Positions 34,816 through 62,758 of a stretch of DNA of 64,000 bases are shown in pieces (position 1 is the stretch's first letter; each line of letters starts with the position of its first letter). Location: the NCBI GenBank assembly GCA_034520215.1, contig JAXHNR010000001.1:1354560-1418559 (forward strand), read 5' to 3'. The translations under genes were made by a program, and so were the position numbers. The notes beneath the pieces are model-generated. The model worked only from the letters and a program-made list of their open reading frames with translations. It did no database searches and had not been told where the DNA came from. This DNA is from Candidatus Krumholzibacteriota bacterium (GTDB lineage Bacteria > Krumholzibacteriota > Krumholzibacteriia > Krumholzibacteriales > WJIX01).

Positions 34816-35621
34816 CCCGCCCATAACACACCAACTCCGGCCGAAATCGTGCTTCCGAGCACTGGATGATTGTTCCAAGTTACACCGAAATACCAATAAT
34901 TTCTTCGATAAACCAAGCCCGTTGAAATTTCATTTGTGTTTTCGTCGTACCCGGACAAAATACAAAAGTTACAGCTCAAATTAACTTCCAACCCGATAAG
35001 GAAGTTATCGTCATTCCTCCTCAGAACAACATAATTAAAAAGAAGAGATATGGGGGGATCACTTATTGAAACCATGAATTTTACTTTTTCGTTATCATAA
35101 CAATCAAAGTTATGTAAATTCCCCTTAACTCCCAATCCGAGAAGATTTCTCCAGTTGTAACTTGCTGATACTCCTATCGTTTTCTCTGTTTCATAGTTAA
35201 ACCCGGCAACCCTCTTGCCTCTAAAACCAGGAGCTAACCCCAATTTAATACCACATCGCGCTATTCTTCTTATCCATCTTATTCTAACGCGGTCTTCTCT
35301 GTATAAATCATGATTAAGAAGAGACCAAGAGATCCATAGATCATTACTGCCGTTATGGATTCCCGTTAAAAGAAAGGAATCAGTGAGTCCTTTTATTGAA
35401 TATGGGTTGGAAACAGAGGAAATCAGCCCGATATGATTACAGTCAGTTCTTAGACAATTCAAATTAGGGACGATACCGGGATGGACCGCTCCACTTCTCG
35501 CCTTAGTCCAAACCGCCGCGCCAGCGGAAACCGGCACAGGAATATTAATAATATAATACAGAATGATTATTAATATTATCTGTCGTTCTTTACCGCCACA
35601 CACTTTTTCTCTATTCTGCAT
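34812..35621 (-). CDS. Small exported outer-membrane-like protein, unknown function
   Basis: 269 aa. A basic N-terminus and hydrophobic stretch (RQIILIIILYYIINIPVPVSAGA) form a signal peptide. The rest is a repetitive beta pattern (SWSLLNHDLYREDRVRIRWI, KTIGVSASYNWRNLLGLGVKG, EISTGLVYRRNYWYFGVTW) ending in GSTISAGVGVLWAG, as in small PorV/PorQ-like or Bacteroidetes-type membrane-associated barrels. The start overlaps the 3' end of the lamin-tail gene by 46 bp and the stop overlaps the HhH gene start by 4 bp. The three are therefore one coupled unit. No specific family recognised. Confidence 0.7.
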   Translation of the reverse strand: MQNREKVCGGKERQIILIIILYYIINIPVPVSAGAAVWTKARSGAVHPGIVPNLNCLRTDCNHIGLISSVSNPYSIKGLTDSFLLTGIHNGSNDLWISWSLLNHDLYREDRVRIRWIRRIARCGIKLGLAPGFRGKRVAGFNYETEKTIGVSASYNWRNLLGLGVKGNLHNFDCYDNEKVKFMVSISDPPISLLFNYVVLRRNDDNFLIGLEVNLSCNFCILSGYDENTNEISTGLVYRRNYWYFGVTWNNHPVLGSTISAGVGVLWAG

Positions 35622-37342
35622 ACACTACCACCCAACCCGAAATACTCCACAACACAGATATAAAGACCCGTCACTACAGCCCTGCCTTCGGAATCGAGAC
35701 CATCCCACAGGAGAGAAAAATAGTCGGCCCCGTTTTTCTCTCCGGCCAGCCGGATAACTTCCATCCCCTCCATATTGAATATTCTCACTAGAAAACCGCT
35801 GTCGCGGCTTCGAGCCTTACCGGAGATAACAAGCTCGCCGTCTCTGGAAAGAGAAAAAGGGTTCGGCGATATTCTAAGTTTTTCGGTTATCGCGGAAAGC
35901 CCATTGAAAGATGAATTTTCTTTCCCCGGGGTTGAACCGCAGGGCGCGGCAGATCTATGCCATAATCCCCCCTTGACCAAGCTGCATACAAATGGAGAAA
36001 ACCTCTCGATCGACCTTCCTCTCTCTTCCTCGGTGATATTATGATATTCGATCTTTTCTTCTATTCTATCCCGTCTGTTTTTCATAATAATAACTTCAGG
36101 TGAAGAAGGTGTACTGTAATCGTTAAGCACCGGCCATCCGCCTTCAACGTCATGGATCGCGATATTTCCGTCAGAAAGAGTTTCTTTCAGACCTTCCGGG
36201 AATTGAGCAAGAAGTAAATATCGCCCGGGAGCTATTAAAAGTTCACTGCTGGAAATCAGTTTCCCGGCCCGATTCGCGTCGCTTAAGAACCAGCCCCGCA
36301 GATTAACGCAGTTATCGCCGGTATTATATAATTCAATCCATTCAGATGAACCGTCATCAGGTCTGTACATAATTTCGTTTATTACAAGGTCTCGGGGAGA
36401 TATATAGAAGGATACACAAGCTGAGTCATTCCCTGTATTCTGGTCTTCATCCTCTTCGATAAATGCTAAGACCGAAACGCTGTCACTAAATCCTGAAACT
36501 GAAAAATCATGTTTATAGCCAAAAACCTCTTCCGATTTTAGCGCTTCTTTATTAGATATGACCGCGATCTTTTCCCTTATATCTTTTGAAACTGCAGCTA
36601 CACAAATGTGAACGGGACAGGAGAAATTCTCTAAACCGCAATTCTTAAGTTCGATATCCAAACTGACCGGGGCATTGGCGCATGGGAAAAGTTCATCATT
36701 TTTTATTGACAACTCCAGATCTGTTCTAAAGAAATTCTTTTCTCCCGGCGTAGGAGAAGAAGGAACAAAATCGGCATTGTTGTTTTCACTGTCTCTTCCA
36801 TCCGGTTTCCTGGAGAGACTAAACCCCGCATCCACATCTACAGCGGGTTTCGATTCATAGAGAGCGCTTAAACTCAATTCTCCATACCCCGCCAGATCAA
36901 CGATAGACCCGTTATATATCAGCCTTACCGCGTCAGGTCCGTTTTGCAGTCCGCACATTGCCGTAAACTCGGGAGTGGGAACACAATATTGTCCTCCAGC
37001 AAAAATTAATTCTTGAGAGGCAAGATAAATATTATCGATAAAACTGAAATATGTTTCCGAACCTCCGGTCCTGCCATCCAAAAATTCAATCCTGAATCCA
37101 TTAAGATTAACAGCTTCCTCACCTGTATTATACAACTCAACAAATTCATGCCCGGTATCACTGCCTGGATGATCATAATATATTTCATTGATTACTATCC
37201 CTTCGGCACATATAGACGGGGCCGGAAATACTCCCGGCGCAAAGAGACCGAACAGCAGGAACATTCCGCAGGAAATATTAAGGTTTAGGTTATTATAGCT
37301 GGGAAAGATCTTCTTTCTGGTATGACCCTTCAACTTCATCAT
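35576..37342 (-). CDS. Exported protein with two lamin-tail domains and a FlgD/type-A-sorting C-terminus
   Basis: 588 aa; the ATG at 37342 has GAGGAGG upstream. A long signal sequence is followed by lamin-tail domain 1 (~45-165; VINEIYYDHPGSDTGHEFVE and LYNTGEEAVNLNGFRIEF). A CARDB-like region is at ~210-315. Lamin-tail domain 2 (~320-430) has VINEIMYRPDDGSSEWIELY and VNLRGWFLSDA. The FlgD-like domain (~500-589) has RISPNPFSLSRDGEL and LLWDGLDSEGRAVVTGLYIC. Bacterial lamin-tail domains are found on exported proteins and often beside nucleases or hydrolases; no catalytic domain is present here. First gene of the operon with the small barrel and HhH-barrel genes. Confidence 0.85.
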   Translation of the reverse strand: MMKLKGHTRKKIFPSYNNLNLNISCGMFLLFGLFAPGVFPAPSICAEGIVINEIYYDHPGSDTGHEFVELYNTGEEAVNLNGFRIEFLDGRTGGSETYFSFIDNIYLASQELIFAGGQYCVPTPEFTAMCGLQNGPDAVRLIYNGSIVDLAGYGELSLSALYESKPAVDVDAGFSLSRKPDGRDSENNNADFVPSSPTPGEKNFFRTDLELSIKNDELFPCANAPVSLDIELKNCGLENFSCPVHICVAAVSKDIREKIAVISNKEALKSEEVFGYKHDFSVSGFSDSVSVLAFIEEDEDQNTGNDSACVSFYISPRDLVINEIMYRPDDGSSEWIELYNTGDNCVNLRGWFLSDANRAGKLISSSELLIAPGRYLLLAQFPEGLKETLSDGNIAIHDVEGGWPVLNDYSTPSSPEVIIMKNRRDRIEEKIEYHNITEEERGRSIERFSPFVCSLVKGGLWHRSAAPCGSTPGKENSSFNGLSAITEKLRISPNPFSLSRDGELVISGKARSRDSGFLVRIFNMEGMEVIRLAGEKNGADYFSLLWDGLDSEGRAVVTGLYICVVEYFGLGGSVCRIEKKCVAVKNDR

Positions 37343-37443
37343 CACAACCTCCTCACAGGATCGATATATTCATATTAAATTAAATCAGAAAGTTATTTCA
37401 AGAACTTTTTAATAATATCTTAAAAATAATATCAGATGGTCAG

Positions 37444-39642
37444 CTATACCATATTCCATAACTTCCTCAAAATCCACTCGGCTGTTAGCATACTGATAAT
37501 TACAACAAGGAATATGACATTAGTTCGGAATGAGCTTTTTCGAGTTATCTCGATCTTATCGGTATGAGGAGTCATACTCGAAAAAATTTCGTCAACTTTT
37601 TCCGGGAGATAAAACCTGCCTCCAGACTTCTCAGACAAACGCTTGAGAAATTCGCCATCCATGGATCTTTGGATATACTCAACTGAGAGCGAATCAACAC
37701 TGAATTCCGTTTCTCCTTCAAAACCTCTGCCTGAATCCAGAATTTCCCTCGCCGCAACCCTGTAACGACCCGGATTAAGCAGGGATAGTTTAGACCTGTA
37801 AATTCCTCTTTTCGTAATTTCAGGATCGAAAATGAAAGTCCGCAGAAGATTTTCTTCATTTTTCTCAATTTTATAGAGTTTCCCCTTAATAGCTCGAGGC
37901 TTTCTCTCCGCACTTAAATATACGGATATATCGGGCTTTTCTCCGGCAGTATACCTGTTTCTAGATGGAACAACATCCAGCATATGACTCTGAGCTCCGG
38001 AAGCAACATATTGAATCAACGCGGAGAAGATCACATTGTAGATATTCTCTCTGTCCGAACCGGACAACTTCCACTTCCAGAGTGACATCCCAAATAATAG
38101 ACCTGAAACACCACTTTCAATTCTTTCAACAGCTATAAGGGGTTTTAAGTCGTCCTTATTCTTATCAGTTAAATAAAGAGGAATCTCCGTCCCCATAGAA
38201 GGACTGAATCCATAAAGGTAAGCGGTCAATGGAGGAAGATTATAAATATCTCCACTCTCGGCAACCCTGATTGTAATGGGATTATTTCTATCCTGAGGGA
38301 GCTTCAAATAGTATTCACCCCCTGATATCTTTGATACCGACACCTTTTCGGCAGGAACAACACTTTCTATAAGTTTATATGAAACCTCAGCATTTAAAGG
38401 ACTTTTTCCATCGGCAAGGAACAGAACACCTCCGCCATCGCGGGTATATTCAATCAAATTATCGGCATTCTCACGTATTGAAAAAATCTTTTCAGCATCG
38501 GAAATAATCACGAGGTCATACCGCTTTAACCCCGGACTGCCGGTTGGAAACTGCCATTTGAGGTATTCCGGCAACTTGATAAAGCCGTGTTCGCGGTTCC
38601 AGGTAACGAAATCAAATTCGTACCTTTTCATTTCATCCGCGAGATTACGGAGAAAAGTCATATTCCAATCGGCATGCTCATCAATGTAGAGAATTTTCTG
38701 CGTTTCCTTGAGTATATTGATATTGAATTCCTCAATTCTTCTGCCGGATAATCTTTCCTCTTCATATTCCATCTCAATCTTCATTCTGTGGCGCGCGGCC
38801 TTCCCCGCTGTATAATCAAAGTCAGCCCGGTATTCACCAATATCTTTCCCGGTAGAAATCAATAAACTGTCTATTAATTTGCCGTCTTCGAACAATCTGG
38901 CCTTTATTTGACCATCTCCGTTTAGTCCTCCCGCGGCGGATACTACTTCTATACTCGTTTTCATTCCGGCATAAACTCTGTTTTCATATATAACATCTTC
39001 TATAGATAAATATCCTCCGCCCGAAGAATCTCCAAATCCTACTGAATACACCGGTAATTCAAATCCTTCAGTCAACCTATCCTGATCTGTCTGAACACCG
39101 TCTGAAAGAAGTATTATCCCGGGAGTATTAGAATACCTGTACCGATTTGCGACTGTCTTTAACGCGGCTGTAATCATAGTTCCTTCTCCATTAGCTTCCG
39201 GAAGGCTATCCTCAGGTATTGAATTTTCATTCACACTGCTTGAAAAAGGTATGATTTCCATATCAGCTGAATATTCATCCCCCATGTTAACCAGCCTGCT
39301 CAGAACAGATATTGATGACTCAAACCGGCTTCCGCCTGAACAATCCTCTATATTCATACTTTTTGAAACATCTACAAGTACAGGAATTAACGGCTTTCTT
39401 TCTTCACTATTCTGATATGTGATAATGGGATTTACGATAAGGATAATAAGGAAAAGGAAAGTCATGGCCCTGAGACCGGATAAAATCCCCCTCTTTAATC
39501 GTGAAATGGGAGGAAAAGATCTCCTGTAGATAAAAAAAGAAAAAATAATAAATACCGCGCAGGCTATCCAACCCGATAAGCCTAATCCTGTCATCATACT
39601 TACAACAACTTCAAACACGGTTTTCCCTTCATCTTCAGGCAA
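37444..39642 (-). CDS. Membrane-anchored von Willebrand factor A-like protein
   Basis: 732 aa. Two N-terminal membrane helices (WIACAVFIIFSFFIY; AMTFLFLIILIVNPIITY) precede a VWA-like domain (~85-240). Its metal-site motif is DVSKSM, with ILLSDGVQTD as the later strand. A middle segment (~315-520) resembles a glutamine-amidotransferase/Rossmann domain (ILYIDEHADWNMTFLRNLAD ... YTRDGGGVLFLADGKSP). A beta-sandwich (~560-680) and one C-terminal membrane helix follow. The layout is that of large membrane VWA proteins in Bacteroidetes-like and planctomycete genomes. It stands alone: the MoxR/DUF58 genes that often accompany such proteins are absent. Function unknown; element copy G ends upstream of it. 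Confidence 0.8.
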   Translation of the reverse strand: MPEDEGKTVFEVVVSMMTGLGLSGWIACAVFIIFSFFIYRRSFPPISRLKRGILSGLRAMTFLFLIILIVNPIITYQNSEERKPLIPVLVDVSKSMNIEDCSGGSRFESSISVLSRLVNMGDEYSADMEIIPFSSSVNENSIPEDSLPEANGEGTMITAALKTVANRYRYSNTPGIILLSDGVQTDQDRLTEGFELPVYSVGFGDSSGGGYLSIEDVIYENRVYAGMKTSIEVVSAAGGLNGDGQIKARLFEDGKLIDSLLISTGKDIGEYRADFDYTAGKAARHRMKIEMEYEEERLSGRRIEEFNINILKETQKILYIDEHADWNMTFLRNLADEMKRYEFDFVTWNREHGFIKLPEYLKWQFPTGSPGLKRYDLVIISDAEKIFSIRENADNLIEYTRDGGGVLFLADGKSPLNAEVSYKLIESVVPAEKVSVSKISGGEYYLKLPQDRNNPITIRVAESGDIYNLPPLTAYLYGFSPSMGTEIPLYLTDKNKDDLKPLIAVERIESGVSGLLFGMSLWKWKLSGSDRENIYNVIFSALIQYVASGAQSHMLDVVPSRNRYTAGEKPDISVYLSAERKPRAIKGKLYKIEKNEENLLRTFIFDPEITKRGIYRSKLSLLNPGRYRVAAREILDSGRGFEGETEFSVDSLSVEYIQRSMDGEFLKRLSEKSGGRFYLPEKVDEIFSSMTPHTDKIEITRKSSFRTNVIFLVVIISMLTAEWILRKLWNMV

Positions 39643-40059: not shown

Positions 40060-40458
40060 TCAAACTTGTTTACTGCCAGTTTTTTCCCAGTTATTCTCCT
40101 TAAATCCGCCGAAGCTGCGGACTGCTTCATCTACACTGTCATAACTTTCCAGTATTGTTTGAAACTCCAGAAGTTCGAATACTTCATAAACATCGCCCAC
40201 CATGGAGGCAAGTTTAAGATCTCCGCCGTTCTGCCGTATCTTCTTAATTTCACTTATGAAAATCCCCCAGCCGGCTGAGCTAATATAATCCACATCGCCC
40301 AAATTGATAACAATATCAAATCTCCGTTCATCAAGAAGTTTTTTAATGGCTTCCTCCAACTCGCTGGATGTAGTTGTGTCTATAAATCCTTTTACAGTTA
40401 CAATAGAAACATTCTGATTTTCTTCTGGTTTGGAAAAAGAAACACTGATATCGTTCAT
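40060..40458 (-). CDS. STAS-domain protein (anti-sigma-factor antagonist type), second copy
   Basis: 132 aa, a single STAS domain (~15-115). The phosphorylation-site region reads VDYISSAGWGIFISEIKKIR, the usual D-x-S/T-x-S-S-A/G-G pattern of SpoIIAA/RsbV. Such proteins switch partners when the serine is phosphorylated by an RsbW-type kinase and dephosphorylated by a PP2C phosphatase; both enzymes are encoded upstream in the 1,438-aa fusion. It is 29 bp downstream of a paralogous STAS gene and is the last gene of the long unit. Confidence 0.92.
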   Translation of the reverse strand: MNDISVSFSKPEENQNVSIVTVKGFIDTTTSSELEEAIKKLLDERRFDIVINLGDVDYISSAGWGIFISEIKKIRQNGGDLKLASMVGDVYEVFELLEFQTILESYDSVDEAVRSFGGFKENNWEKTGSKQV

Positions 40459-40487: not shown

Positions 40488-40856
40488 TTAATTCGTTTTA
40501 TTGCTCTTTCGCGAATCGAATGCCATCAAAGCATCCGTAGCGGACTCGTATGGAGTCAATAATGTGTCAAATTCTAAGAGTTCAAAAACATCACGGACTT
40601 CAGGGGTCATCCCGGCTAGCTTGATATCTCCCCCTTTTTCACGTAACCCTTTAATTTCGGAAACAAAGATACCCCAACCAGCTGAGCTGATATAATCCAC
40701 TTCAGTCAGATCAATTACTAATCTTACCCTCTCGGCGATTATTAACTCATCGAGCTTTGACTCAAGATAAAAGGAAGTCGCGGAGTCAATTAACCCAAAA
40801 AGCTTTAAAATTGTTATATCTTCAATAAATTCTTCTTCAATACGCAACTTATTCAT
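40488..40856 (-). CDS. STAS-domain protein (anti-sigma-factor antagonist type), first copy
   Basis: 122 aa, one STAS domain with the phosphosite region VDYISSAGWGIFVSEIKGLR. It is very like the neighbouring STAS protein (both have SSAGWGIF and FELLEF) and like the three STAS domains in the 1,438-aa fusion. It is probably a diffusible member of the same switch. Spacing to the upstream TPR gene is 45 bp. Confidence 0.92.
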   Translation of the reverse strand: MNKLRIEEEFIEDITILKLFGLIDSATSFYLESKLDELIIAERVRLVIDLTEVDYISSAGWGIFVSEIKGLREKGGDIKLAGMTPEVRDVFELLEFDTLLTPYESATDALMAFDSRKSNKTN

Positions 40857-40901: not shown

Positions 40902-42080
40902 TCAGTCCAATAAGGCCCTTAATAATATAAAAATCCCCTGCCTTTCATTCTCTGTCAGCCTGATATTCTTTTTGGCCTTCTCATAATCTTTATTGATCTT
41001 AACAGCCATCTTGAAAGCCTTCCCGGCTCTGTCCATAAACATCTTGCTCTTGGCGGCGTATAGTATTCCAAGAGAATTATGCGCGTCGGCGAAATTAGGA
41101 TTCTGATCTACTATTTTCTCCATACTCTCGAGATATTTATCAATCTCTATTTCTTCAAGATCATCTCCACTCTGCAATATCATTAAATAAAGTTCGCTTA
41201 TAATCTTATCCACATTGATTCTATCTGAAACTTCTTCAACACGGTCAAGAACATTCAAAACATCTTCATACTTTTCTTCACTGAAAAGCTTCTTTACCTC
41301 TTCTATTTTATCCCTGTTCAAAGAAGGATTCAGCGTTGAGACTTTATCGAGATATTCGTCAAAATCACCCTTAAGTTCACGCGATAACTCATAATCCTGT
41401 TTTATTATTGAATTCAACATTAAAGTTTTTATTATATTCAAATAAGCTTCACCATAATAGTAATTCTGCTCAATCGCCCGATTAAAACTGTCCACAGCGA
41501 GTCTGCAGTTATTTCGCATATAGTATATCTTCCCGGCAAGATTGTGTAGATCAGGGTAATCCGCTCTTATCTTCAATCCCTTAATCACAGCGTGAAAAGC
41601 TTTCGTATATTCACCCATTTCATACCAGGATCCGCTGATTATTTTGTAAGGCTCTGCTCCCTTCTCACCCTTCTTTACGGCAGTTTCCGCTTCTTCGATA
41701 GCTTCATTATAGAGATTCCGGAGAAACAGAGCTTTCGCCAATTTGAGATGAGCCCAGGCTTTATCAGAGGATCTTATTTTTTCTCTTACATCAAGAAGCA
41801 GAAGAAACTTAGCCTTGTTCCTATTATGAATAATCTTTGCCGTCTCAACAGACTCGTCCGGCGTTTTTCCTTCCTTCAGGGGATAAGTAACTGAATCAAA
41901 ACAACCCCCCTTTTTGAAAAACGCCGCCACAATAGAATTATCCCGAGGCAGAAAAGTAGTCTGGAGAAAATACTTTTCTCCATCCCTGCTTATTTCCTCT
42001 CTTAATTCAAAATTATCAGCCAATTTTTCTCCTTCAAATTCAAATTCTCTTGAATAGCATACATATTCAGGATACTCCAA
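40902..42080 (-). CDS. TPR-repeat protein
   Basis: 392 aa. The first ~85 residues form a mixed domain (YFLQTTFLPRDNSIVAAFF) without a known match. From ~105 on there are helical TPR units: AWAHLKLAKALFLRNLYNEAI, PDLHNLAGKIYYMRNNCRLAVDSF, AHNSLGILYAAKSKMFMDRA. No signal peptide, so cytosolic. It lies between ParA and the STAS genes in the same unit and is probably a scaffold for them (inference). Confidence 0.8.
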   Translation of the reverse strand: MEYPEYVCYSREFEFEGEKLADNFELREEISRDGEKYFLQTTFLPRDNSIVAAFFKKGGCFDSVTYPLKEGKTPDESVETAKIIHNRNKAKFLLLLDVREKIRSSDKAWAHLKLAKALFLRNLYNEAIEEAETAVKKGEKGAEPYKIISGSWYEMGEYTKAFHAVIKGLKIRADYPDLHNLAGKIYYMRNNCRLAVDSFNRAIEQNYYYGEAYLNIIKTLMLNSIIKQDYELSRELKGDFDEYLDKVSTLNPSLNRDKIEEVKKLFSEEKYEDVLNVLDRVEEVSDRINVDKIISELYLMILQSGDDLEEIEIDKYLESMEKIVDQNPNFADAHNSLGILYAAKSKMFMDRAGKAFKMAVKINKDYEKAKKNIRLTENERQGIFILLRALLD

Positions 42081-42113: not shown

Positions 42114-42848
42114 TCAAATATTCAGTATCTCCTCGGTTAGACGGTAGTAATCAAAAGCGCCTCTTGAGAGGGGGGCATGTTCATATATGGTTTTGTTAAA
42201 GCCCGGAGCTTCTCTCAGAGCGGTGTTAACTCTAATCACAGTTTTGAATATATTTTCAGAATATTTTGATCTGATCTCTTCAAGAACGATCTTTGAAATA
42301 TTTGTACGTGAGTCGAAGAAAGTGGGAAGAACAATAAAGTTAATTGTCCTCTTTGGAGCATGCCATTTAACTTCATCTATCATTTCAATCGTTTGAGTTA
42401 ATCCAACTTTAGAAAGATGATCAAGAGAAACGGGAACTATGACTTCATTGGAAAAGGCCAGAACATTTATGTTTATCAAGTTCAATGAAGGGGGACAATC
42501 ACATATAACAAAATCAGGTCCCTTGAGATTAGAAAGGGCCTTCGACATTCTCCTTTCGCGATTCTGCTGACTTCCAAGAAGAAGTTCAACCTCCATAAGA
42601 TCCTTCCCCCCTGAATCAATAAGAAAGAGATTGTCCCTCACCAGCATAATATCTACATCTCCGGTTCGCAAAAGACTTGAAAGTCCTCTTTTTCCCTGAT
42701 TACCAAAAGTGATTGAAGTGTTCCGCTGCGGGTCACAATCTATAAGCAGCACCTTTTTTCCGCTCAACGCTAGTCCATGAGCAAGGTTGACACCTGTGGT
42801 CGTCTTGCCCGTTCCACCCTTCATCGTCATTATAGCGTATTTTTTCAT
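42114..42848 (-). CDS. ParA/Soj-family ATPase
   Basis: 244 aa. The deviant Walker A MKGGTGKTTT has signature Lys10 and catalytic Lys15. Walker A' is LLIDCDPQRN and Walker B is FVICDCPPSLNL; later motifs are VPVSLDHLSKVGL and VLPTFFDSRT. ParA proteins dimerise on ATP and position DNA or protein complexes, or act as switches. No ParB is nearby. The start overlaps the stop of the 1,438-aa signalling protein by 4 bp, so the two are translationally coupled. This suggests a dedicated partner, not chromosome segregation. Confidence 0.92.
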   Translation of the reverse strand: MKKYAIMTMKGGTGKTTTGVNLAHGLALSGKKVLLIDCDPQRNTSITFGNQGKRGLSSLLRTGDVDIMLVRDNLFLIDSGGKDLMEVELLLGSQQNRERRMSKALSNLKGPDFVICDCPPSLNLININVLAFSNEVIVPVSLDHLSKVGLTQTIEMIDEVKWHAPKRTINFIVLPTFFDSRTNISKIVLEEIRSKYSENIFKTVIRVNTALREAPGFNKTIYEHAPLSRGAFDYYRLTEEILNI

Positions 42849-45800
42849 TTATCGGTTCCTTTATCTCCCTTTTTATTCTTCTTTGAAAGCTTTTTGCCAT
42901 AAGCGTCCCATCCGATATTTCTAATTTTGCTGTCTTTATCCTCCAGCCTGTCTATCTTTTCCTTTTCAACGTCAATATCTGAGCCGGAAGTAGTTTCCTC
43001 TTTTTCTGACAAATCTTTTAAATAGGAATTCTCATCCTCCTGTTTAGCTGTGTCTGACTCAATATAACCGTCTTTTTGAATATTGGATGAGTAGATAATT
43101 TCTTTTTCCCGCTTTTCTTTCTCTTCCTCTCTGCTGCTCTCTATACCGTCGGTATGATCAACTTTATTCTGTGTTATTTCTTCTGATATCTCTTCCTCAT
43201 CTGCTCCTTTATTTCTATTATTTGAGGAAGCGCCCACACCTTCTGTAACTCTAAGCTCTTCAACAGCCCTTTCCGTGTTTGTAAAATGAGGAATAAGGTC
43301 TTCAAACCCGAGGTCTGTGAAAATATTGAATATTGCAGAATTCATTCCTGAAAGAGCTAATTTCATTCCGTCTGATTTCATTCGTTGTTGTGCGTATCTG
43401 GCAATATTTCCCCATCCGCTGCTGTTTATATATACCGCATTTGATAAATCAACAATCAGAAAGTCGGGATCACCGGCGAGTGATTCTTCGAGACTTCTAT
43501 TGAATTCGTCATTACTTGAAGCATCTATCGCGCCTTCTACTTCAAGTATTACACCTTCACTCCCAGAATCTTTGACTCTCTCGAGATTGACTCCAAATGA
43601 GTACCCTTCTGCACCGGTGTTACTATGGTCGGCAGCCACAACAGCAGGTTCCGATTCAAGATCGTTTTCATCGTACCCGGCTGCCGCAATTTCAACATCG
43701 AAATCCTCTACCGCTTCAGCCATCACATTAAAGGAACGCATAAGATCATCAAATCCGAGCATTGTGAATACCCTGTTTAATTCTGAATCCATCCCGAATA
43801 TCTTAAGGTCACCGCCCTTTCTTCTCAATCCTTCAACCCTTGAAGCGAAGACACCCCAGCCGGCGCTGCTTATATATTCCACGCCGGACATATCAGCCAC
43901 AATCTTTATAGACCCCGTTTGTAATACTCGTTCAAATATATCACTTAATTTAACGGAACTCACTGTGTCAATTATACCGTTTAGTTCCAGGACGGTAATC
44001 TCCCCGCTCTCTCCAACCGATCCCGCTTTTATACTTAATGGAATCATATCAGCATGTTCAATATCCAGCCCTTCTGAAATAGGTGTCTTTTCAGGATTCT
44101 TCTTCCTGTATTTCTTCTGCTTAACTTTTAAGTGTTTCTGCCTTTCCTTGAATGGAAGTGACAGATAATCCAAGGCATCTTCTTTCAACCGGAACTGCAT
44201 AATGATATCCATAAAGCCCAGCAATTCAAATATGTCATATACTTCCCGGGACATCCCGACTAATACAACATCACCTTTTTTCTCCCTTAAATTTTTCACC
44301 CGGCCCACGAATACACCCCATCCACCGCTGCTTATATAAGTAACGTCCTTCAAATCAACAATTATATTAGTTGCTCCCTCTTCAAAGAGGTTTTCCATAA
44401 TATTTTCTAATTCACCTGTAGAGGAAGAATCGAGGTGGCCGGATACTTTTAGAATGGTTATATCCTCATTGTATTTTTCATCTTCAATATTTACAACCGA
44501 ATCTGTCCCATATTCCATTTCCTCAATGTTTTCTTGATATTCAATTTCTCTACTTGTTTTACCCTCAACAGTTTCAGTCACGCCGGGTTTAAAAGCTTCT
44601 CCCGAATCAGTTTTCGAAGCAACAGGCAGCTTGTCAGCAGTTTCTTTCTGATCGGGTGAAACGTAACTCTCACTCTTTTCTTCTTCTATGCCGGCAGTCT
44701 CTCTTTTTGCTTTATCAATATCTTTAGATTCAACTTCTCGCTCACCTTCGAATATTATCCCGCTTCTCTTTAAATATTCCGCTCTCTTCTCGTATGTGTT
44801 CAGCCTCATTCTCTTCAGTTCTTCATATACCAATGAGGAAGTAATCTTGTTCTCCTCGGCTTTTCCCTCATTAAATCTGTCCGCAATCCTTTTAGGGCCA
44901 AACTTGGGATCCTGTTTTACTATTTCCATCAATTTTGCTCTTTGTTCGTTACTGAAACGCCTTAGATCCTGATCCTCTCTTAGATTTTTATTCTTCAGTC
45001 CGCGTTCACCCAGCAACTCAAGACGTTTCTTATATCTGTAATATGTCGAAGGAGAGACTTTCATCTTTCTGCAGGCCTCTGCAACAGATATTCCTTCAAC
45101 GCTTACCAGATCCAAGAGTTTTTTCCTAATACCGGACAACACTTCATCGGCCACATATTTTTCTTTGAAGGCAACAACTGTAATATCGTCATTCTGCGGA
45201 TATTCTCCCGTAAACCTATCAATATCCTCACTTAAACTGTCTAGAAACTCCTGAGGTGATTTTCCGCCGCTTTCTTTCATGAGTTTGAGAAGCCTTTTCT
45301 CGCCGTACTGCTCTCTATTTACATTCATTGCCTCGGTAACACCGTCTGTGTATATAAGAAGCATATCGTCTTTCTTCAGCTTGATCTTCTCAACATCTAT
45401 CGATTTTCGAAAAAGCTTGTCATCCGGGAGATTTATTCCTACCGGAAATCCCCTTGGATTCAGATAGAAGGTTTCATTCGTACTGGCTCTGTAAAGAATC
45501 ATCGGATTATGCCCCGCACTTGCATAACTGATAACCCTGTTTCTTGAATCAAGAATTACGTAAAATATCGTTACAAACATTCCTTTCTTCATGTCATCCG
45601 TGACAAACTCATTCATTTTAGCCATAACATCGGCAGCTAAACGATTCCCTCTTGCCTCCATTCTCAACGCGGTCCTAATCATAGTCATCACAAGGGAACC
45701 CGGCACTCCTTTACCTGAGACATCCGCCACAACAACTCCAACGGTATCCTCATCAACATTTACAAAATCATAATAGTCGCCGCCAACCTCCTTTGCGGCT

Positions 45801-47161
45801 TTATAGTAACTTGCGATATCATATCCGCCTATTTCAGGCACTTTCCGGGGAAGAAGAGAATGCTGTATCTCCTGAGCAACCTGCATCTCTTTCTGCATTC
45901 TTTCCTTTTCTACCACACTTTCCTGGGCCACGCGGAATTTTGCCGTGATATCATTAAAGGCCTTCGCTATGGCTCCTATTTCTTTCGGACCTTTTATGTC
46001 AAGTTCATCTTCGAGAGACCCTTCGCCAATTGCTAAAACTCCATCAGTAAGAGTTTGTATAGGTTTGATAAATATCGATACAAGAAGGTAAATAAGGCCT
46101 ATTCCGGCTACAAATATTCCTAAAAGAATAACAATCAGCTTATACCTTTGATCCTGGATGCCTCTTTCGATCTTCCGGGCTGATACTTCCATAACGAGAT
46201 ATCCCAAATTAATTCTTTTATCGTCATTCTTTTCTGAAAGTATAACGGGCAAATGATATGCCTTGATATTCTCTTCATTCTTTTTCATGGAAACCCATTT
46301 CCCATATGAAGAAAAATCTCCGGCACCGGGGAGATTTTCAATAGGTTGTCCAAATTCATCAGCTACGCTCGAAGAGACTATAACACCCTCTTTGTTTACG
46401 ACCCTCATAGCCTCGATTTCGGGGTGAGATTTCATTCCATCGTGAATAAACTCATTTAGCTTTCTGTATTCAGGGTGATATAAGTCATCAAGCACAAGAG
46501 CGTTTTCACTTCTTAACTCAAGCGTGCGCGCGAAATTTCTTATCTGCATCCAGGCTTTCTGTCTGTTGTTCTCAAGTTCACGTGTCTGGCTTATGAATTG
46601 TAAAATACCGATAACGGCAATAAGCACGGAAAAACCAGCTGAAGCCCTTAATAGAAATTTAAATCTAAGTGTCTGAGTCCATCTTGGTTTAAGCGAGACA
46701 AGTCGGGATCTCTTATCCTGCTGGAATGCTTCTGAACTCTTACTCATTATCAGATGGTTGCCGCCGCTGGAAGATTCATACCTAATGTGATCCATGAGAC
46801 GGTTCATCAGATATATTCCAAGCCCGCCCCGTTTACCCATTTCAACGTATTCTTCAAGGTCCGGATCTTCAACACCCGACCAGTTGAAAGGTTTTCCCCT
46901 GTCACGGAGATGAATTTCAACATTTCCCGGCCAAGCTCTAATATCAACAATTATCTTACCTGATTTACCAACGTAGGCATGCTTAATGATATTTGTGCAG
47001 GCTTCATCTACGGCTAGTTTGGTATTATTTATCTCCCGCTTGCTAAATCCCGCCTGCAGACAAATATTCGAGATATAATCCCTTATGTCACCAAGATTGT
47101 TTTCGTCAGCGTGAAACTCGAGATGAAAATTTTTCTCTTTTTTCAGGTTCTTTTTCTTCAA
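42845..47161 (-). CDS. Fused RsbW-like kinase / membrane sensor / PP2C phosphatase / transposase-like HTH / three STAS domains
   Basis: 1,438 aa; TTG start directly after the previous stop, with GGGGAAG upstream. Domains in order: HATPase anti-sigma-kinase-like (~10-145; KLAVDEACTNIIKHAY, RDRGKPFNW, GLGIYLMNRLMD); membrane helix ~170-190; extracytoplasmic sensor ~190-335; second helix ~340-362; HAMP (~363-415); SpoIIE-type PP2C (~425-665; VGGDYYDF, VVADVSGKGVPG, YASAGHNP, IYTDGVTEA, NDDITVVA). Then a winged HTH like that of IS481/IS3-type transposases (~670-800; VAEACRKMKVSPSTYYRYKKRLELLG, FGPKRIADRF). Then a charged linker, three STAS domains (~890-1000, ~1040-1145, ~1175-1280; YISSGGWG, YISSAGWG, YINSSGWG) and a ~150-residue charged tail. 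Opposing kinase, phosphatase and substrate domains lie in one chain. Coupled to ParA downstream. Confidence 0.9.
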   Translation of the reverse strand: MKKKNLKKEKNFHLEFHADENNLGDIRDYISNICLQAGFSKREINNTKLAVDEACTNIIKHAYVGKSGKIIVDIRAWPGNVEIHLRDRGKPFNWSGVEDPDLEEYVEMGKRGGLGIYLMNRLMDHIRYESSSGGNHLIMSKSSEAFQQDKRSRLVSLKPRWTQTLRFKFLLRASAGFSVLIAVIGILQFISQTRELENNRQKAWMQIRNFARTLELRSENALVLDDLYHPEYRKLNEFIHDGMKSHPEIEAMRVVNKEGVIVSSSVADEFGQPIENLPGAGDFSSYGKWVSMKKNEENIKAYHLPVILSEKNDDKRINLGYLVMEVSARKIERGIQDQRYKLIVILLGIFVAGIGLIYLLVSIFIKPIQTLTDGVLAIGEGSLEDELDIKGPKEIGAIAKAFNDITAKFRVAQESVVEKERMQKEMQVAQEIQHSLLPRKVPEIGGYDIASYYKAAKEVGGDYYDFVNVDEDTVGVVVADVSGKGVPGSLVMTMIRTALRMEARGNRLAADVMAKMNEFVTDDMKKGMFVTIFYVILDSRNRVISYASAGHNPMILYRASTNETFYLNPRGFPVGINLPDDKLFRKSIDVEKIKLKKDDMLLIYTDGVTEAMNVNREQYGEKRLLKLMKESGGKSPQEFLDSLSEDIDRFTGEYPQNDDITVVAFKEKYVADEVLSGIRKKLLDLVSVEGISVAEACRKMKVSPSTYYRYKKRLELLGERGLKNKNLREDQDLRRFSNEQRAKLMEIVKQDPKFGPKRIADRFNEGKAEENKITSSLVYEELKRMRLNTYEKRAEYLKRSGIIFEGEREVESKDIDKAKRETAGIEEEKSESYVSPDQKETADKLPVASKTDSGEAFKPGVTETVEGKTSREIEYQENIEEMEYGTDSVVNIEDEKYNEDITILKVSGHLDSSSTGELENIMENLFEEGATNIIVDLKDVTYISSGGWGVFVGRVKNLREKKGDVVLVGMSREVYDIFELLGFMDIIMQFRLKEDALDYLSLPFKERQKHLKVKQKKYRKKNPEKTPISEGLDIEHADMIPLSIKAGSVGESGEITVLELNGIIDTVSSVKLSDIFERVLQTGSIKIVADMSGVEYISSAGWGVFASRVEGLRRKGGDLKIFGMDSELNRVFTMLGFDDLMRSFNVMAEAVEDFDVEIAAAGYDENDLESEPAVVAADHSNTGAEGYSFGVNLERVKDSGSEGVILEVEGAIDASSNDEFNRSLEESLAGDPDFLIVDLSNAVYINSSGWGNIARYAQQRMKSDGMKLALSGMNSAIFNIFTDLGFEDLIPHFTNTERAVEELRVTEGVGASSNNRNKGADEEEISEEITQNKVDHTDGIESSREEEKEKREKEIIYSSNIQKDGYIESDTAKQEDENSYLKDLSEKEETTSGSDIDVEKEKIDRLEDKDSKIRNIGWDAYGKKLSKKNKKGDKGTDK

Positions 47162-49048
47162 TTAATCATTCTTCCCCGAATTAATCATTTCTAACCTGTC
47201 TTCAGCTTCTTTAATATTCTTTTTTATACTTTCATTTTCCGGATCGATCTTCAGAATTTTATTCCAAACTTCTATTGCCGATCCGTATTCCCTCTGAGCA
47301 AAGTATTCCATACCTCTGATATACAATTTCCGTATTTGATCTTTTTCTTTATCGTCTAATGGAACCAGTCGGCGGCGGGTTCTATCAAGAAGCTTTCCCG
47401 CTTCCCGGTGATCAGGGTTAATCTCCAATACCCGCTTGAGCTTTTCAGCTGCTTCGCGATAGTTTCCAATACTGAAATCGTTCAATGCCTTTTCGAAGAT
47501 ATCAATTGCTTTTAACTTCATCCTGGTTGAATCCAAATTAACACTCAGTGTTTCCAATTTCCTCTTCAGCCTCTGAGATCCTTTCTCGGCTTCTTTATTT
47601 TCCGGATCGAGTGTTTTTATAATATTCCATTCATCCATTGCTTCGGCATATTTATCACTATTCTCATACTCGATAGCTCTTTCCCTGTGCTCCGCTATCT
47701 GCTTGGAAAGCTTTTCATCTATTCTGGCTATATATTCCAGCGCTTTCTTATTATCAGGATCAATTTCAAGCAGAGAATTCCATTCTTCTTTCGAAAGAAG
47801 ATATTCGTTGTTTCTGTAGTATCTCAATCCCAGTTTAAAATGACGCTCTATAAGAACCTGTTTCTCAGCGGATTCTATTTCCTCCTGCTGCTGTTTGACT
47901 AGCTCATCTTCCAACTCAGCAATCATTCTGGAAGCTTCGTCGTTTGACGGATCATATTCGAGCACAATTTTAAACTCGTCATAAGCTTTTGCTAATTCAC
48001 CCTTCTCTCTGAGCGATTTTGCTTTTTCCAAATGGTTTTTGAATCTTCGATCAATAACCTTCTTAAGATACCTTCGTTCCTCCGCTCTTCTGCGCTCTTC
48101 GGCCTTTTCCCTCTTTTCGTCAACTGATTCACCAATATTGACCGATATCGAAACCGGATGTGAAGATCCGGCTTCCTCACGGCTGAAATACCCGTAATCG
48201 GCAGTGTACCCCTGCCACGAGAATCCTATCCCGGCTGTTATTTGTTCAGAATCAAAACCAACCCTGAAACTTGCTATATCTTTTAAATTATATTCAAGAC
48301 CGAACCTTATATCCTTATCGGCCCTTTCCGGTATATCCATTTGAGCTGTTGCCATAAGGGACGACCCGTTTTTAAATTCGTAAGTGTAGCCCGCTCCGAA
48401 CATCATCGTTCTGTCGACCTTTTCGCTGATAGAGACAAGTTTGGTTTCAGCTCCCATGATATCCTGAATATTGCAGCCAATAACAAAACCTCTCATATAT
48501 GAGACCCTGTATAAAAGGCCGGCATCCATCCCCGCCCCCGTATCTGAATAATCACCCATACTCTGATTTAACACCTTCAGTGAAGTTCCGAATGTAAATC
48601 GCCCGAACAGCTCATAGGGCAAATCAAAGGCGTAAGCCAATATCCCTTGGCTCTCGCGATAAGAGATTTCTCCAAGTTCCCTGCTGAATCTGTCAAATTC
48701 TCGTATTCCGTCAGTCCCTGTTGTCATTATCCCGATCCCAAAGGCGCCCGCTGAAAGAGTGGGATATACTGCTCCGACAAAATCATAAGTGGAGCCGCTG
48801 AAATCGGAGAAAAGCTGGATATGATTCGCCATTATTCCCGTATATTTGTTCAACTTCAGCCCGGCCGGGTTGTAATAAATAACGGAAGGATCATCGCCGA
48901 CAGCGGTAAATGCACCGCCGAGAGAAATTGCCCGTGAACCCGCTCCAAGTGTAAAAACAGACCTTGTTCCTCCCGTACCCACTTCAGCGGACATACTTTT
49001 GCCCCCGGCAAGCAGTACTATCAGTATCAGAATTATTGATCTTTTCAT
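47162..49048 (-). CDS. PorV/PorQ-like outer-membrane protein with C-terminal TPR repeats
   Basis: 628 aa with a signal peptide (MKRSIILILIVLLAGGKSMSA). Residues ~22-310 are a barrel of the PorV/UPF0164 type: RSVFTLGAGSRAISLGGAFTAVGDDPSVIYYNPAGL is the family's hallmark, split here as LGAGSRAISLGGAFTA and DPSVIYYNPAGL. A highly charged helix (~315-350) leads to several TPR units (~330-625), each with a DP(D/E)N/NPDH turn (ILEYDPSNDEASRMI, LLEIDPDNKKALEYI, VLEINPDHREA, ILKIDPENESI). PorV shuttles T9SS cargo to the surface in Bacteroidetes. Its gene begins 12 bp after the giant sortable protein and ends where the signalling fusion begins. Confidence 0.88.
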   Translation of the reverse strand: MKRSIILILIVLLAGGKSMSAEVGTGGTRSVFTLGAGSRAISLGGAFTAVGDDPSVIYYNPAGLKLNKYTGIMANHIQLFSDFSGSTYDFVGAVYPTLSAGAFGIGIMTTGTDGIREFDRFSRELGEISYRESQGILAYAFDLPYELFGRFTFGTSLKVLNQSMGDYSDTGAGMDAGLLYRVSYMRGFVIGCNIQDIMGAETKLVSISEKVDRTMMFGAGYTYEFKNGSSLMATAQMDIPERADKDIRFGLEYNLKDIASFRVGFDSEQITAGIGFSWQGYTADYGYFSREEAGSSHPVSISVNIGESVDEKREKAEERRRAEERRYLKKVIDRRFKNHLEKAKSLREKGELAKAYDEFKIVLEYDPSNDEASRMIAELEDELVKQQQEEIESAEKQVLIERHFKLGLRYYRNNEYLLSKEEWNSLLEIDPDNKKALEYIARIDEKLSKQIAEHRERAIEYENSDKYAEAMDEWNIIKTLDPENKEAEKGSQRLKRKLETLSVNLDSTRMKLKAIDIFEKALNDFSIGNYREAAEKLKRVLEINPDHREAGKLLDRTRRRLVPLDDKEKDQIRKLYIRGMEYFAQREYGSAIEVWNKILKIDPENESIKKNIKEAEDRLEMINSGKND

Positions 49049-49060
49049 GTTAATACCGTT

Positions 49061-52000
49061 CTACTTTGCTACCCCTATCTTGAAAATCGCTGAATTAGAA
49101 CCCGCCGTAATTTTACATATATATACCCCGTTCCTTACTATATTCCCCCTTCCATTTCTTCCATCCCACGGAGTACTGTGATATATCTTATCTGTACTGC
49201 CTGTAGCTCCAACGCCGCCGGAAGCGATATCCTTAGACCACACAAGTTCACCTGTGTAGTCATATATCCTTATTTGCACATCTGAATTCTCAGTAAGGAA
49301 ATAAGCGATTTGTGTTTCCTCGCTTCCAGCTCTGAAGGGGTTTGGATAGTTATGCGTGTATTCGGAGAAATTGCTGCTCATTATCGTAAACGGAGTATTA
49401 AAGAAATGTCCTGTTATTTCATCATCATCTCCGCTCCAGACTACACTGACGGGGGTGCTTTCTCCGCCTATAGATAATCTAACATCGTCATTACTGACAA
49501 GTTCAATTCTCATGCCGCCGGCCGGGGCGCCGCTCGCGATGTCAACTTCTAGAATTGCCGCGGCGCTGTCGGTCGAATTAATCGTAAAAGCGTGATCCAC
49601 GATAACCGGTACGGGATTTACATCTGTTGCTCTCGTTGAATATTTAACCTCTCCGGCAACAAAACTTACGCTGTCAACTACCTGCGAAGGATTCTCGACA
49701 TCCAGACCGTTCACGTCGCGAACAGTTACGAAAAGTGTGTCGAGTCCTACTGTGTAAGCCGACATGTTTCTAAAAGAAACCTTGAGCATAGGGACGTTAC
49801 GTGCTCCCTGCGGTACCACGTGCGGCGGAATCGCGATTGTGTCATTCTTTGAAATATTACTCATCGAGACAATACCCGCGTCTGTTTTCACAGGAATTGA
49901 TATTTCTCCTGTTCCAATTTGAGCGGCCTTGTCCGTATTGACGTCAATAGCGTAAGGTTCTCTGAAATGAACACGTATATTACCCGGAGGCGACATAGAA
50001 GAAGGAGCCTTTAAATTCCATGTTACAGGTTCTCCTATAGAAAATTGCCTTATACTGTCTCCGTCAACAAAGGTGTAACCGGGAGGAAGATCAACTTTCA
50101 AACTCGCTTCATCCGTGTTGACTCCCGCGCTTCCGCTATTTGCCACTTCAGCTTGAATATTAAACGGAAGGCTGACAGACAACTCCCCTTCAAGAGCCTG
50201 CTCGGGACCTGATATAAACGCGGACAAATCAATAACAGCGGCAGATTCAGTCTCAACCTCCAGAGAACTGACACAGCCGCTGAAGGAACTCCCCGAATTA
50301 ATATCCTTCCCGCCGGTAGTCAATTCTATTTGCATCGGCTGCGGATCTTCATCAGGTGGCGCGGAAAGATTCCAGACAACAGATCTTTCAATTCCTTCTC
50401 CATTTCCGATATTACGCCTGAGATCTCCTTCCGCTGAATATCCGCCGGGGAGTAACAGCTCCAGCCACACTTCATCGGAATTAGACGAAGGTGTCGCAGA
50501 AGCCCTGACGGTGAAATCCTGATCCGTCGATAAGAGCCCATCCACAGCACCCGGAGGTGAATCAACAGCCAGACCGCAATTTTTAACCATTGCCTTTTCT
50601 TCAGTTAAAATAATAATACTATCATACGGTTCAGCGCGGAAAGCAGGCTTGTCAATGTTGACGTCAATAGGGACTGCGGTTATTCCAACACTCAGTGTAT
50701 CAGAGGGATCGGGGATTGAAGGTGAAATCAGAGTCCATGTAATATCTTCATCCACAACAAATGACCTTGCAAGCGGTTCGCTGGCAGAATCCGCCAATGA
50801 AAAACCGTCGGGCAGAGTGATGCTTATTTCGCCTGAATTATCAACCTCAGCTTCCCCGTTGTTATTGACAGTAGCGTTGACAATAAAACTCTGTTCCGTT
50901 GAAATGGTATCATCAACCGCTCCCGCGGGAGATATTATTCCGATAGTCAAAGCAAGTTCAGCAGCGTTTTGTATTTCGATATTCTCAGCCGACTCTACTG
51001 CCTGAAGAGGAGATATCTCTTCGCCCGTACTGACAGAAACAGCCTTAACGATCGAAGCGGAAAGAACTTCAACTCCGGGATTTAAGGAGGCCGTAACGTT
51101 AAACACAAAAACGCCCTGTTCGGCTGTTCCGAGCTGAGGGCAGCTGTCCGCAGTGCTGATCAAGGAAGTCCCGTCAGTTACAAGCGCGACATCGATGCTG
51201 TCAAGATCATCTCCCCCGGTATTTTCAATCGTTGCCGTTATATTAAATTCCTGAGAAGTATTAACTATTGAAGTGTTCTGAACTCCCGTGTTGTTTGGAG
51301 CATCGCTGTCTATAGAAATAATCCTGAGCCCGGATGGTTCCCTGACAATTACCGCGGAATCACGGCTCACCTGAGTCTGCGAAGAATCCGGAATATTCTC
51401 ATCTCTCCAACCCAGAGTACAGCTCACAGAAACGGTACCGGTATCAAGTCCGGTAGATGAAATCAGATACCGCAGAGAATCAGTCTGACCTTCCTGTAAA
51501 GTAAAACCGGAAGTGCCGGACGAAAAACCATCAGGAGCAATTACCAGATAATCTGTCAGTTGAATGGAGTTCTTATAAAATACGATATTACCACTGTCAG
51601 GCTGATCCAAGGTGACAGGCGCGCCGCCGTTATTATTAACAACCGCGGTCAAATTCCAGTCGGATGTCTGTCCGGCTGTTACAAACTCTTGTGAAGGAAC
51701 TACTCTTTTTATAACGAGCTCCCCGGAACTTTGTATTTCAGCCGCGGCCGTGCTGTCAGTAGCGTTAGAGAATATAGTAATGTCACTCTGCCCGGAATTG
51801 GTATCAACAGCATATTCCAACGCGGCGTAGAAATTCTCACTGCCCACTGTGGAAGAAGCTCTGACATTGAAAGTATCTTGGGCAACATCACCGTAAGCGA
51901 GAGAACCAATATAATGGACAGGGTTTTCAATAAATGAAGATCCGTCGCTTGACAGAGAGACTCCGATGCTGTCAGCAGGCGCGCCTCCGTTGTTTTCAAC

Positions 52001-55000
52001 CTCCAGCACTACTGGAAAATACTGATCAGAATTAACGAATGGAGATCGGGGGGCGGTATTCTTAAGTGAAAGAATTGATATATCAGCTGGAGTTTGTATC
52101 TCAATAATACCATAACCAGTGTGTTCAACGCCAGTGTCAAAGCTCAAAAAATGTGTTCTGTTATTCTCGAACACACCAACATGACTGTAAATTTCAATAT
52201 TCTCGGAAACTGTCACCTCCGGAGAAGGGGTGACACCAAATACAAGATGCTTGGATTCTCCTCCGGCAAGAGACAGTCCTCCGCCGGAGAATTCTGAGGG
52301 CGGGGAAGGAACCGAAAGACTATAGTTACTGTATATATAAGTACTATCCATAGAAAGGGTTATATTAGCTTCACCCTGATTTTCAACAAGCAGATCAACT
52401 TCCCAGATAGATGTCTGTCCTGAAGTAATTGTATTCTGGCTGAGAGTTGTTCCGGTAACAGCAAGTATCGCGGGTTCCTGAACACTAACGTATCCTTCCC
52501 CTCCATTGAATGTGTCATCTGTTATGATATTCGCGCTGTTAACGTCACTCGCTGTTACATGACCGTCAATTACCGCTATACCCGTTGTCGTTCCTGTAAT
52601 TGTAACACGGAACAGAAGTGTATCCACCTGATTACCCGCGAGAGTATCAGTTCCCGCTTTCTGAAGACTCCCGGGATTTATGACAGTGTATTCCCCCGTA
52701 CAGTCACCTGACCCGGCTACATTAAAAGTTAGATAAGTGTTCGAAGCTGAAAGATCCATATCCAGTGACGCTTCACCGGTGTTGTGAACAACCATTCTGA
52801 CTTCCCACTCAGGCTGCAGCGACGCCGTGACACTCTGAGGACTCTCTATACTTGTGATACTTAAGCGGGGAGCTGTTTCTACTTCGATATAATCGGAACC
52901 TGAAGAGATATCTGTTTCAAAATGATTTCCATTTTCTTCTCCCTCAAGATGTGCCGCAAGAGTGTAGGAACCCGGGGCTATGGCTGAATCGACTGTGCTG
53001 CTCTCAAAAATTAAAACAACACTTTCTCCTCCTGAAACTAAATGCTGAGACGCTGGCGAAAGATACGCCCTGAAACTATCACTATCCGCGTCAGCAAATG
53101 TTATGTAAGTACTCGAAGGATGAAGGTCAAGAGCAGAGGATTCACTATTGGGGCTGGCTACACCCAATTCAATTGAGATTTCTGTTCCCGCGCTTGCTGA
53201 AAGAGGAGATAAACTGGAGGATATATATTCCGGATTTGGCTGTAACTCGAACGTAACGGAATCAGAAGTTGTAACTTCTCCCGGGTAAGTATAAACGGCA
53301 TTATCGCTGTTTATCTCTCTTCCCACAACAGATCCGGAAAGAAGCCGTTTGCCGGGAAGCACAGATCCCGTCGTTGTGACGACAAAACGCAGCACACCCG
53401 ATTGGGAGGCCTTAAGAGTTACACCTCCACTTGACAGTTCATTTGGATAATCAAAAACAAACCCGCTTCCTCCCTGAACACTTACCGTGGAAGAATCATG
53501 GTCGGAAAGGTCAAGCATTACATCCGACCCTCCGGAATTCACTATATTCACGTCTATATACCAATCGTTAAGCTGACCTATTGTAACCGGATCCTGAGAG
53601 GCGTGGAATCCGGTAATTTCAAGTAAGGAGGGCAGCTGAATCAAAACATCTTCAGTAACTCCGGGATCACCCTGTACAGGGTAGATAACGCGGGAACTGT
53701 TAATCTCTCTCGCTGTTCCGGCGATATTGATAGTGCACGTTCCCTCAACGCTGCCAGTGGAATCTATCAGAAAATGGAGTGTATCAGTTGAATTACCATA
53801 TAAAATTGTATCGCCGGATACAAAAGCGGAAGGTGAAACAACATTAAAATCATCCGATGTGGAGAATGTAAGATGTGTATCCGTAGAGTCAAAATCAAAA
53901 GCAAGGTCCGATTCTCCTTCGTTGACTAAGACAACATCAACAAACCAGTCTTTACTCTGATAAACAGTGGCTTCCTCTACCGAACTTGTTATGGCTGATA
54001 CAACAGGTATCCCCGGAGTCTGTACAAGAAAATCGCCTTTTCCCCCATATTCAGTTGTACCAACAAGCTCGTTCTGACTATTGAGATCGGTGCCCCATAT
54101 TGTAGCTTCTATGACCACCATACCAGTTGTCATTGAATTTGACGTATCATCCTCGAAACGAACTTGAAAACTATCAATCTGCCCGCCGCCGAGTTCTTCC
54201 GCTCCAGGATTAAAATCGATATAGGAGAGCAGGTATTCATCCGTTACAATACTGCTTCCCGAATATAATCTACACTGAACACTGTCAAGTCTCACAGCAG
54301 CTTCGCCATTATTCTGAACTTTTATACTCCCCGTCCAGTATGCCTGCTGATCTTTCGTTACCAGGTCTCGAGGTGTAACATCAATACTGTTAATAGCCAG
54401 CCTGGATGGTTCTTCGATTGTTATAGAAGTATCGGGATAAATATCATCAGTGAAAGGCAATCCGTTCTCATAACCCTCAACATGAATAACAGGGCTGTAA
54501 TTTCCTGTGATCATATCCGTGGGAACGGCGGCGGACTCAAAATAAAGGGTATTATTTCCGGGGCTTAGAGTGTCTCCCTGCTGATCATTAAGAGAAGAAG
54601 TATAGTAAACAGAGCCATCATCGAATCTTATGTAAGTGCTTTCGCTGTTACATATAACATTCGCTCCGCCTGAATTAGACAGACCCGCGGTGAATGATAC
54701 CCAGCTGTTTTTACTCACCGATACGGGTGTAAGAGAGGCGGGAAGATAGTCAAGTTCTGCCGGCAAAACAACATTTACAGAATCACCAAGGACAAAAGAT
54801 GTATCAAAATCAGCTCCATTTTCCTCCCCGGACAGTGTTAACAGTACCGGATATTTTGCCACATCCATCGAGGAGGGTATCATGCCGGCAGTAAAATCAA
54901 TATCTGTTACAGCCAGACCGGGCAGGGCTTCATCGACTTCCGGGTAAACCGTAAAAGATTCCGTTCCGTCAGAAAAAGAAAGGTTCGTATTATTTCTGTC

Positions 55001-62725: not shown

Positions 62726-62733
62726 CCTTACTA

Positions 62734-62758
62734 TAACTGGCAATTGTTATGCCAGTTA
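62734..62758 (-). promoter_or_regulatory. Inverted repeat just upstream of the giant gene's start
   Basis: TAACTGGCA (62734-62742) and TGCCAGTTA (62750-62758) form a perfect 9-bp inverted repeat with a 7-nt spacer, ending about 8 bp before the ATG at 62725. No T run follows in the gene's direction. It could be an operator or an mRNA hairpin beside the ribosome site. Confidence 0.5.

Follow-up and report, generated by a model that had tools for sequence, protein, structure and literature searches.

Whether a complete partner switch, with a sensor, an opposed kinase and phosphatase and the STAS domains on which these would act, can be carried by a single bacterial protein, and what such a protein would control, is the question raised by a locus of a Candidatus Krumholzibacteriota bacterium. 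The locus lies in a stretch of 64,000 nucleotides of contig JAXHNR010000001.1, hereafter called the window. An initial annotation, made from the letters alone, had proposed that one uninterrupted frame of 1,438 codons encodes all of these parts, and that two separate STAS proteins encoded downstream carry the signal away. Here, the protein, its relatives, its operon and the genome around it are analyzed.

Domain architecture of the switch protein

The frame is located on the minus strand at 42845-47161, it starts with TTG directly after the stop codon of the upstream gene, with which it abuts, and it contains no internal stop, so that the single frame described initially stands. All domains that had been named, i.e., HATPase, HAMP, SpoIIE, HTH and three STAS domains, were recovered by Pfam profile searches, and the order within the 1438 aa is kinase, first membrane helix, sensor, second membrane helix, HAMP, PP2C, HTH and three STAS domains (all on the minus strand). 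The N-terminal RsbW-type HATPase, the putative kinase, covers aa 16-141 (46739-47116; Pfam HATPase_c_2, 7e-27), is assigned to RsbW by NCBIfam (1.5e-22) and by its PDB match 6m36 RsbW (1.3e-14), and carries E53 and N57 of the N-box, D87 of the G1 box and the G2 motif GGLGI at 112-116. Hydropathy yields exactly two membrane helices in the whole chain, at aa 169-187 (46601-46657) and aa 343-361 (46079-46135), and the second one leads into a HAMP domain at aa 360-404 (45950-46084; Pfam HAMP, 8e-10), in agreement with the two helices and the HAMP domain expected from the first reading. This topology places aa 188-342 (46136-46600) outside, while the enzymatic and STAS parts are cytoplasmic. For this extracytoplasmic region an AlphaFold2 model (23 homologues, pLDDT 82) was searched with Foldseek, and the best match was the extracellular domain of WalK/YycG (E 2.4e-6), followed by other Cache/PAS sensors, by which the region is classified as a PAS/Cache-like sensor domain.

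A helical linker and the SpoIIE-type PP2C phosphatase occupy aa 420-666 (45164-45904; Pfam SpoIIE at 470-666, 1.9e-49) with the metal-site aspartates D462, D480, D606 and D659, and the phosphatase structure of Rv1364c, 3ke6, ranks second among the PDB matches. It is followed by a double HTH of the IS481-transposase type at aa 679-800 (44762-45127), supported by NCBIfam IS481 (3.3e-14), by Pfam HTH_29, HTH_28 and HTH_32 (aa 679-779, 1e-7 to 1e-5) and by a model. As the matches of this model to PDB folds, among them TnsB, PAX and mariner paired-type domains, are weak (E > 0.2), the IS481 assignment rests on the profiles. Pfam STAS matches three stretches of the chain (1e-52), which belong to the anti-sigma-factor antagonist type (NCBIfam TIGR00377, 2e-49; SpoIIAA, 1e-31): STAS1 at aa 898-993 (44183-44470) with the predicted phosphosite S945, STAS2 (43712-44011) with S1099 and STAS3 (43268-43558) with S1247. 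The linkers between the HTH and the STAS domains are variable. The best NCBIfam models for the chain are RsbW, ant_ant_sig and SpoIIAA, and the RsbT model is absent from the best 25.

Conservation of motifs and phosphosites

The RsbW-like and PP2C motifs and the STAS serines, described initially as intact, turned out to be invariant in the relatives. Among 25 relatives, none that contains the respective region has lost the N, G1 or G2 box of the kinase or any of the PP2C aspartate motifs. In an alignment with RsbV, the second serine of the SSxGWG motif falls on the position of RsbV Ser56, the established phosphosite, and no exception to this serine occurs among the sequences compared for STAS1 (19), STAS2 (19) and STAS3 (18). 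STAS3 evolves fast, with a mean identity of 43% and a minimum pairwise identity of 20%, and S1247 is among only 8 invariant columns of this domain; the GWG is also kept. The invariance of the serine, even in the divergent STAS3, suggests that selection keeps each of the three tethered STAS domains phosphorylatable. The HTH is conserved at about 40% identity from the class of the host to the tailless relatives L047-L049 described below. In another tailless relative (L051:4983-7382) it is strongly eroded with kinase and PP2C intact, suggesting that the HTH is dispensable in some lineages.

Operon context and the possible link to type IX secretion

The switch gene is the third of an operon that is syntenic across the clade and in which genes for a T9SS-type giant surface protein, PorV-TPR, the switch, ParA, TPR, STAS A, STAS B, a 732-aa protein and a lamin-tail protein follow each other on the minus strand. 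The first gene (49061-62743) encodes a repeat surface protein of 4560 aa with a C-terminal T9SS/FlgD-type sorting domain (49094-49357), and within it a unit of roughly 107 aa is repeated about eight times almost without change. Just upstream of it lie two tandem small ORFs (63200-63604 and 63607-63990) with AMPK1_CBM/CBM48 glycogen-binding domains. The second gene (47162-49048), the one whose stop codon abuts the switch start, encodes a 628-aa outer-membrane protein of the PorV/PorQ family with TPR repeats (NCBIfam PorV_fam, 93.4 bits at a cut-off of 90), and it is kept as a pair with the switch across lineages. The ParA-type ATPase of 244 aa (42114-42848; Pfam AAA_31, 6e-38) overlaps the stop of the switch gene by 4 bases, and both this gene and the following one, encoding a TPR protein of up to 392 aa (40902-42080), co-occur with the tailed switch. 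The two free STAS proteins A (122 aa; 40488-40856) and B (132 aa; 40060-40458), both with the motif SSAGWG and assigned by Pfam, synteny and the STAS tree, are the separate downstream proteins noted at the outset; they are kept in the operon, with the ParA and TPR genes intervening between them and the switch. The conserved 732-aa protein (37444-39642; alignment reading and synteny) has no Pfam or NCBIfam family match. Near its N-terminus it has two hydrophobic stretches, a vWA-like motif (DxSxS) is present, and an EWxxRK motif lies in the C-terminal part; by these features it looks like a BatA-type vWA membrane protein. The lamin-tail-domain surface protein (35576-37345; Pfam and synteny) is kept in the operon as well.

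The genome encodes a T9SS core with the PorU sortase (579 bits, cut-off 420) and a SprA-like protein (SprA_N, 39.5 bits, cut-off 27), and its sorting-domain matches number about 35 and include the C-terminal domain encoded by the first gene of the operon. Together with the PorV_fam and cargo neighbours, these matches place the switch in a T9SS cargo/PorV operon of a T9SS-bearing genome. Another protein that ends in a T9SS sorting domain, a papain-family protease, is encoded elsewhere in the window (23228-25753). A 521-aa REC-PglZ protein of the PorX type (L114:310-1875; C1 near 548609-550174) is found in the same genome, which therefore does not lack the regulator usual for the T9SS. That the switch controls the T9SS may be proposed from gene position, i.e., from guilt by association; in the open-licence literature searched, no report was found that links partner switching to PorV or to the T9SS.

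Distribution and origin of the STAS tail

Unbroken chains from the kinase to the third STAS domain were found in about 17 cases including that of the window, and several further ones are truncated at contig ends or interrupted by N runs. Long matches are spread over the whole of one order (families f1 and f2) and are also present in the families f7 and f8 of the same class, whereas f3, f4, f6 and most of f5 show matches to single parts only, mainly to the PP2C. Relatives of 799-877 aa that do not have the STAS tail are present in G010, which belongs to the same class, and at the loci L047-L051. The pair of PorV-TPR and switch without tail recurs in other lineages, L047-L051 included, and the tail is therefore probably a later addition that resulted from duplication and fusion of STAS domains. 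G010 encodes PorV-TPR, the tailless switch and one free STAS protein and has no ParA and TPR matches. Of the tailless loci only L071 has a free STAS gene, a single one, beside the switch, and within the stretches examined around L047-L051 there are no STAS genes. Relatives of the TPR protein (26/78 genomes), of PorV-TPR (28/78) and of ParA (26/78) are confined to genomes or families in which the switch is present as well. Judged from this co-occurrence and from the gene content of G010, the STAS tail, ParA and TPR travel together, and PorV-TPR and the switch are the older pair. In two cases, L070 (G074) and L068 (G075), the switch lies far from its ParA/TPR genes and contains N or X runs, a layout that may stem from misjoined scaffolds or from a genuine rearrangement.

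In a tree of 84 STAS sequences, which is built on few columns and has some long branches, the operon domains group by position, with STAS2 and STAS3 each forming one starred group and with STAS1 and the free STAS proteins less resolved. STAS1-3 and the free STAS proteins cluster together as paralogues, and four other STAS sequences of the genome fall outside this cluster. Taken with the tailless relatives, the tree suggests that one operon STAS was duplicated and then fused before f1, f2, f7 and f8 split. The tailless relatives further suggest that tethered STAS domains are not required for the enzyme core to work, so that the main substrate may be other than the tail.

Proposed mechanism and alternative explanations

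From the domain order, the intact motifs and the conserved phosphosites, an opposed action of kinase and phosphatase on the STAS serines, as had been proposed, is the natural reading. We consider it fairly probable that the protein is a membrane-anchored single-chain partner switch, in which envelope sensing sets the PP2C against the kinase at five STAS serines, with an output to the surface/T9SS-related programme of the same operon; the activity, the action on the tethered domains, the direction of the signal and the target we infer from the domains, the conservation, the operon and the T9SS genes of the genome. The extracytoplasmic PAS/Cache domain would sense something at the cell envelope and, via the second membrane helix, the HAMP domain and the helical linker, would adjust how active the PP2C is relative to the opposing RsbW-type kinase at the N-terminus. 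The signal would be the net phosphorylation of the SSxGWG serines of the three tethered and the two free STAS domains, and the variable linkers behind the HTH would let the tethered domains reach the enzymes, be it in the same chain, in a dimer partner or in trans. The free STAS proteins, perhaps together with ParA/TPR or with the HTH, would then relay the signal to the surface/T9SS-related programme. It tells against this reading that no sigma factor of the SigB/SigF type, as a possible output partner, was recognised among the seven sigma-70 genes of the genome. According to published work on PP2C phosphatases, it is HAMP domains and helical linkers that bring about their dimerisation and activation (eLife RP100376, PMC12143880). 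The phosphatase is therefore expected to be the part that the sensor gates most directly, and the kinase would oppose it as in SypE.

In an alternative explanation the tethered STAS domains are a scaffold or a local buffer that occupies the kinase or builds a stressosome-like array, and it is the two free STAS proteins that serve as the actual substrates, in trans. The ancestral-looking form without tail, the single free STAS gene beside the switch at L071, the conservation of free STAS genes alongside the tail and the fast divergence of STAS3 are compatible with this. However, a pure scaffold would not need the serine to be invariant in all three tethered domains, and the profiles are of the RsbW and SpoIIAA/RsbV type, with RsbT missing among the best 25 models. 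We regard this explanation as unlikely, though worth keeping in mind. That the protein is mainly a membrane-bound transcription regulator, whose IS481-type HTH binds DNA under the control of kinase, phosphatase and STAS tail, would agree with the retention of the HTH in L047-L049 and with the fact that none of the seven sigma-70 genes of the genome was recognised as SigB/SigF type; set against this, the HTH is eroded at L051 despite intact enzymes and its matches to PDB folds are weak, and this possibility seems improbable. It is likewise improbable that the protein is a conventional partner switch whose final target, reached through the HATPase or through a free STAS protein, is a sigma factor of the RpoD-like or ECF kind encoded elsewhere: the RsbW-like HATPase and the RsbV-like STAS domains are classical parts and the sigma-70 region-2 genes, sorted by sequence and length, comprise RpoD, two small RpoD-like and four ECF genes, but the operon contains no sigma gene and none of the SigB/SigF type was recognised in the genome. 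A nearby sigma factor as target was also considered and rejected, as there is none in the window. The same genome encodes a conventional partner switch with discrete STAS, HATPase and PP2C genes (C1:32646-37329; L095, L074 and L002), which speaks against this explanation and means that the fused protein is not the only switch of the cell. That separate genes were fused only by assembly or annotation, conceivable for a long and unusual domain string in a metagenome-type genome, is practically out of the question, as the same single frame recurs unbroken in about 16 further independent assemblies with 50-70% identity and the same neighbours, which rules out an assembly fusion.

Beyond the single-chain partner switch favoured here, a more far-reaching proposal can be made tentatively, which we hold to be possible but doubtful. 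The status of the envelope would be read through the five STAS phosphosites by an undescribed class of partner switches dedicated to type IX secretion or surface assembly, in which a membrane kinase/phosphatase was ancestrally paired with PorV-TPR and, in one clade, acquired three of its STAS substrates by fusion and recruited ParA/TPR. If the favoured reading is right, the protein is a natural case of an opposing kinase and phosphatase tethered with three substrate copies under one membrane sensor, and effects of tethering and of a multi-site substrate on switching could be tested directly against the tailless relatives. It would also point to a second route of T9SS regulation besides the PorX-type response regulators, in little-studied bacteria, a notion that rests on the pair of PorV-TPR and switch common to distant lineages.

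Comparison with known partner-switching systems

The separation of the components into proteins meeting in trans, from which the initial annotation had started, holds for the Bacillus type, but not as a general rule, since Rv1364c, SypE and HsbR/CrsR combine parts in one protein. Rv1364c from M. tuberculosis contains PAS, PP2C, kinase and STAS in one chain, and its STAS residue Ser-600 is phosphorylated by its own kinase domain and dephosphorylated by its own phosphatase domain (PMC9138534). It thus resembles the switch in having sensor, PP2C, RsbW-type kinase and STAS in one polypeptide. It differs by its order PAS-PP2C-kinase-STAS, by its length of 653 aa with one STAS domain and without HTH, and by its described role as SigF regulator; a PorV/ParA/TPR context is not described for it. 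SypE from V. fischeri has an N-terminal serine kinase, a central input domain and a C-terminal PP2C and acts on the STAS protein SypA (PMC3610818; PMC8256260). The order of kinase, input and PP2C is that of the switch, but the input is a receiver (REC) domain in place of the TM-PAS/Cache-TM-HAMP unit, the STAS domain resides on a separate protein, and SypE has neither an HTH nor a STAS tail. In HsbR/HsbA from P. aeruginosa and CrsR/CrsA from Shewanella a protein with PP2C and a kinase/anti-sigma domain controls a STAS protein (PMC6482189); in contrast to the switch, the order is receiver-PP2C-kinase, the STAS protein is separate and the targets are RpoS and FlgM.

With RsbU/RsbP, RsbW and RsbV of Bacillus subtilis the switch appears to share the three biochemical roles together with their motifs, i.e., the ATP-binding motifs of the kinase, the PP2C aspartates and a serine at the position of RsbV Ser56. 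There, the roles are distributed over separate proteins, whereas here they are found in one membrane-anchored chain with a tripled substrate. The full domain order had been thought to be undescribed, and in the open-licence literature searched no match was found to it, to the triple tethered substrate, to the HTH or to the secretion-operon context. Single-chain partner switches and proteins of the order kinase-input-PP2C are already known; what is new compared with these systems is that a membrane sensor separates the kinase from the phosphatase, that the chain carries an HTH and a tail of three STAS domains, and that its gene is located in a secretion operon.
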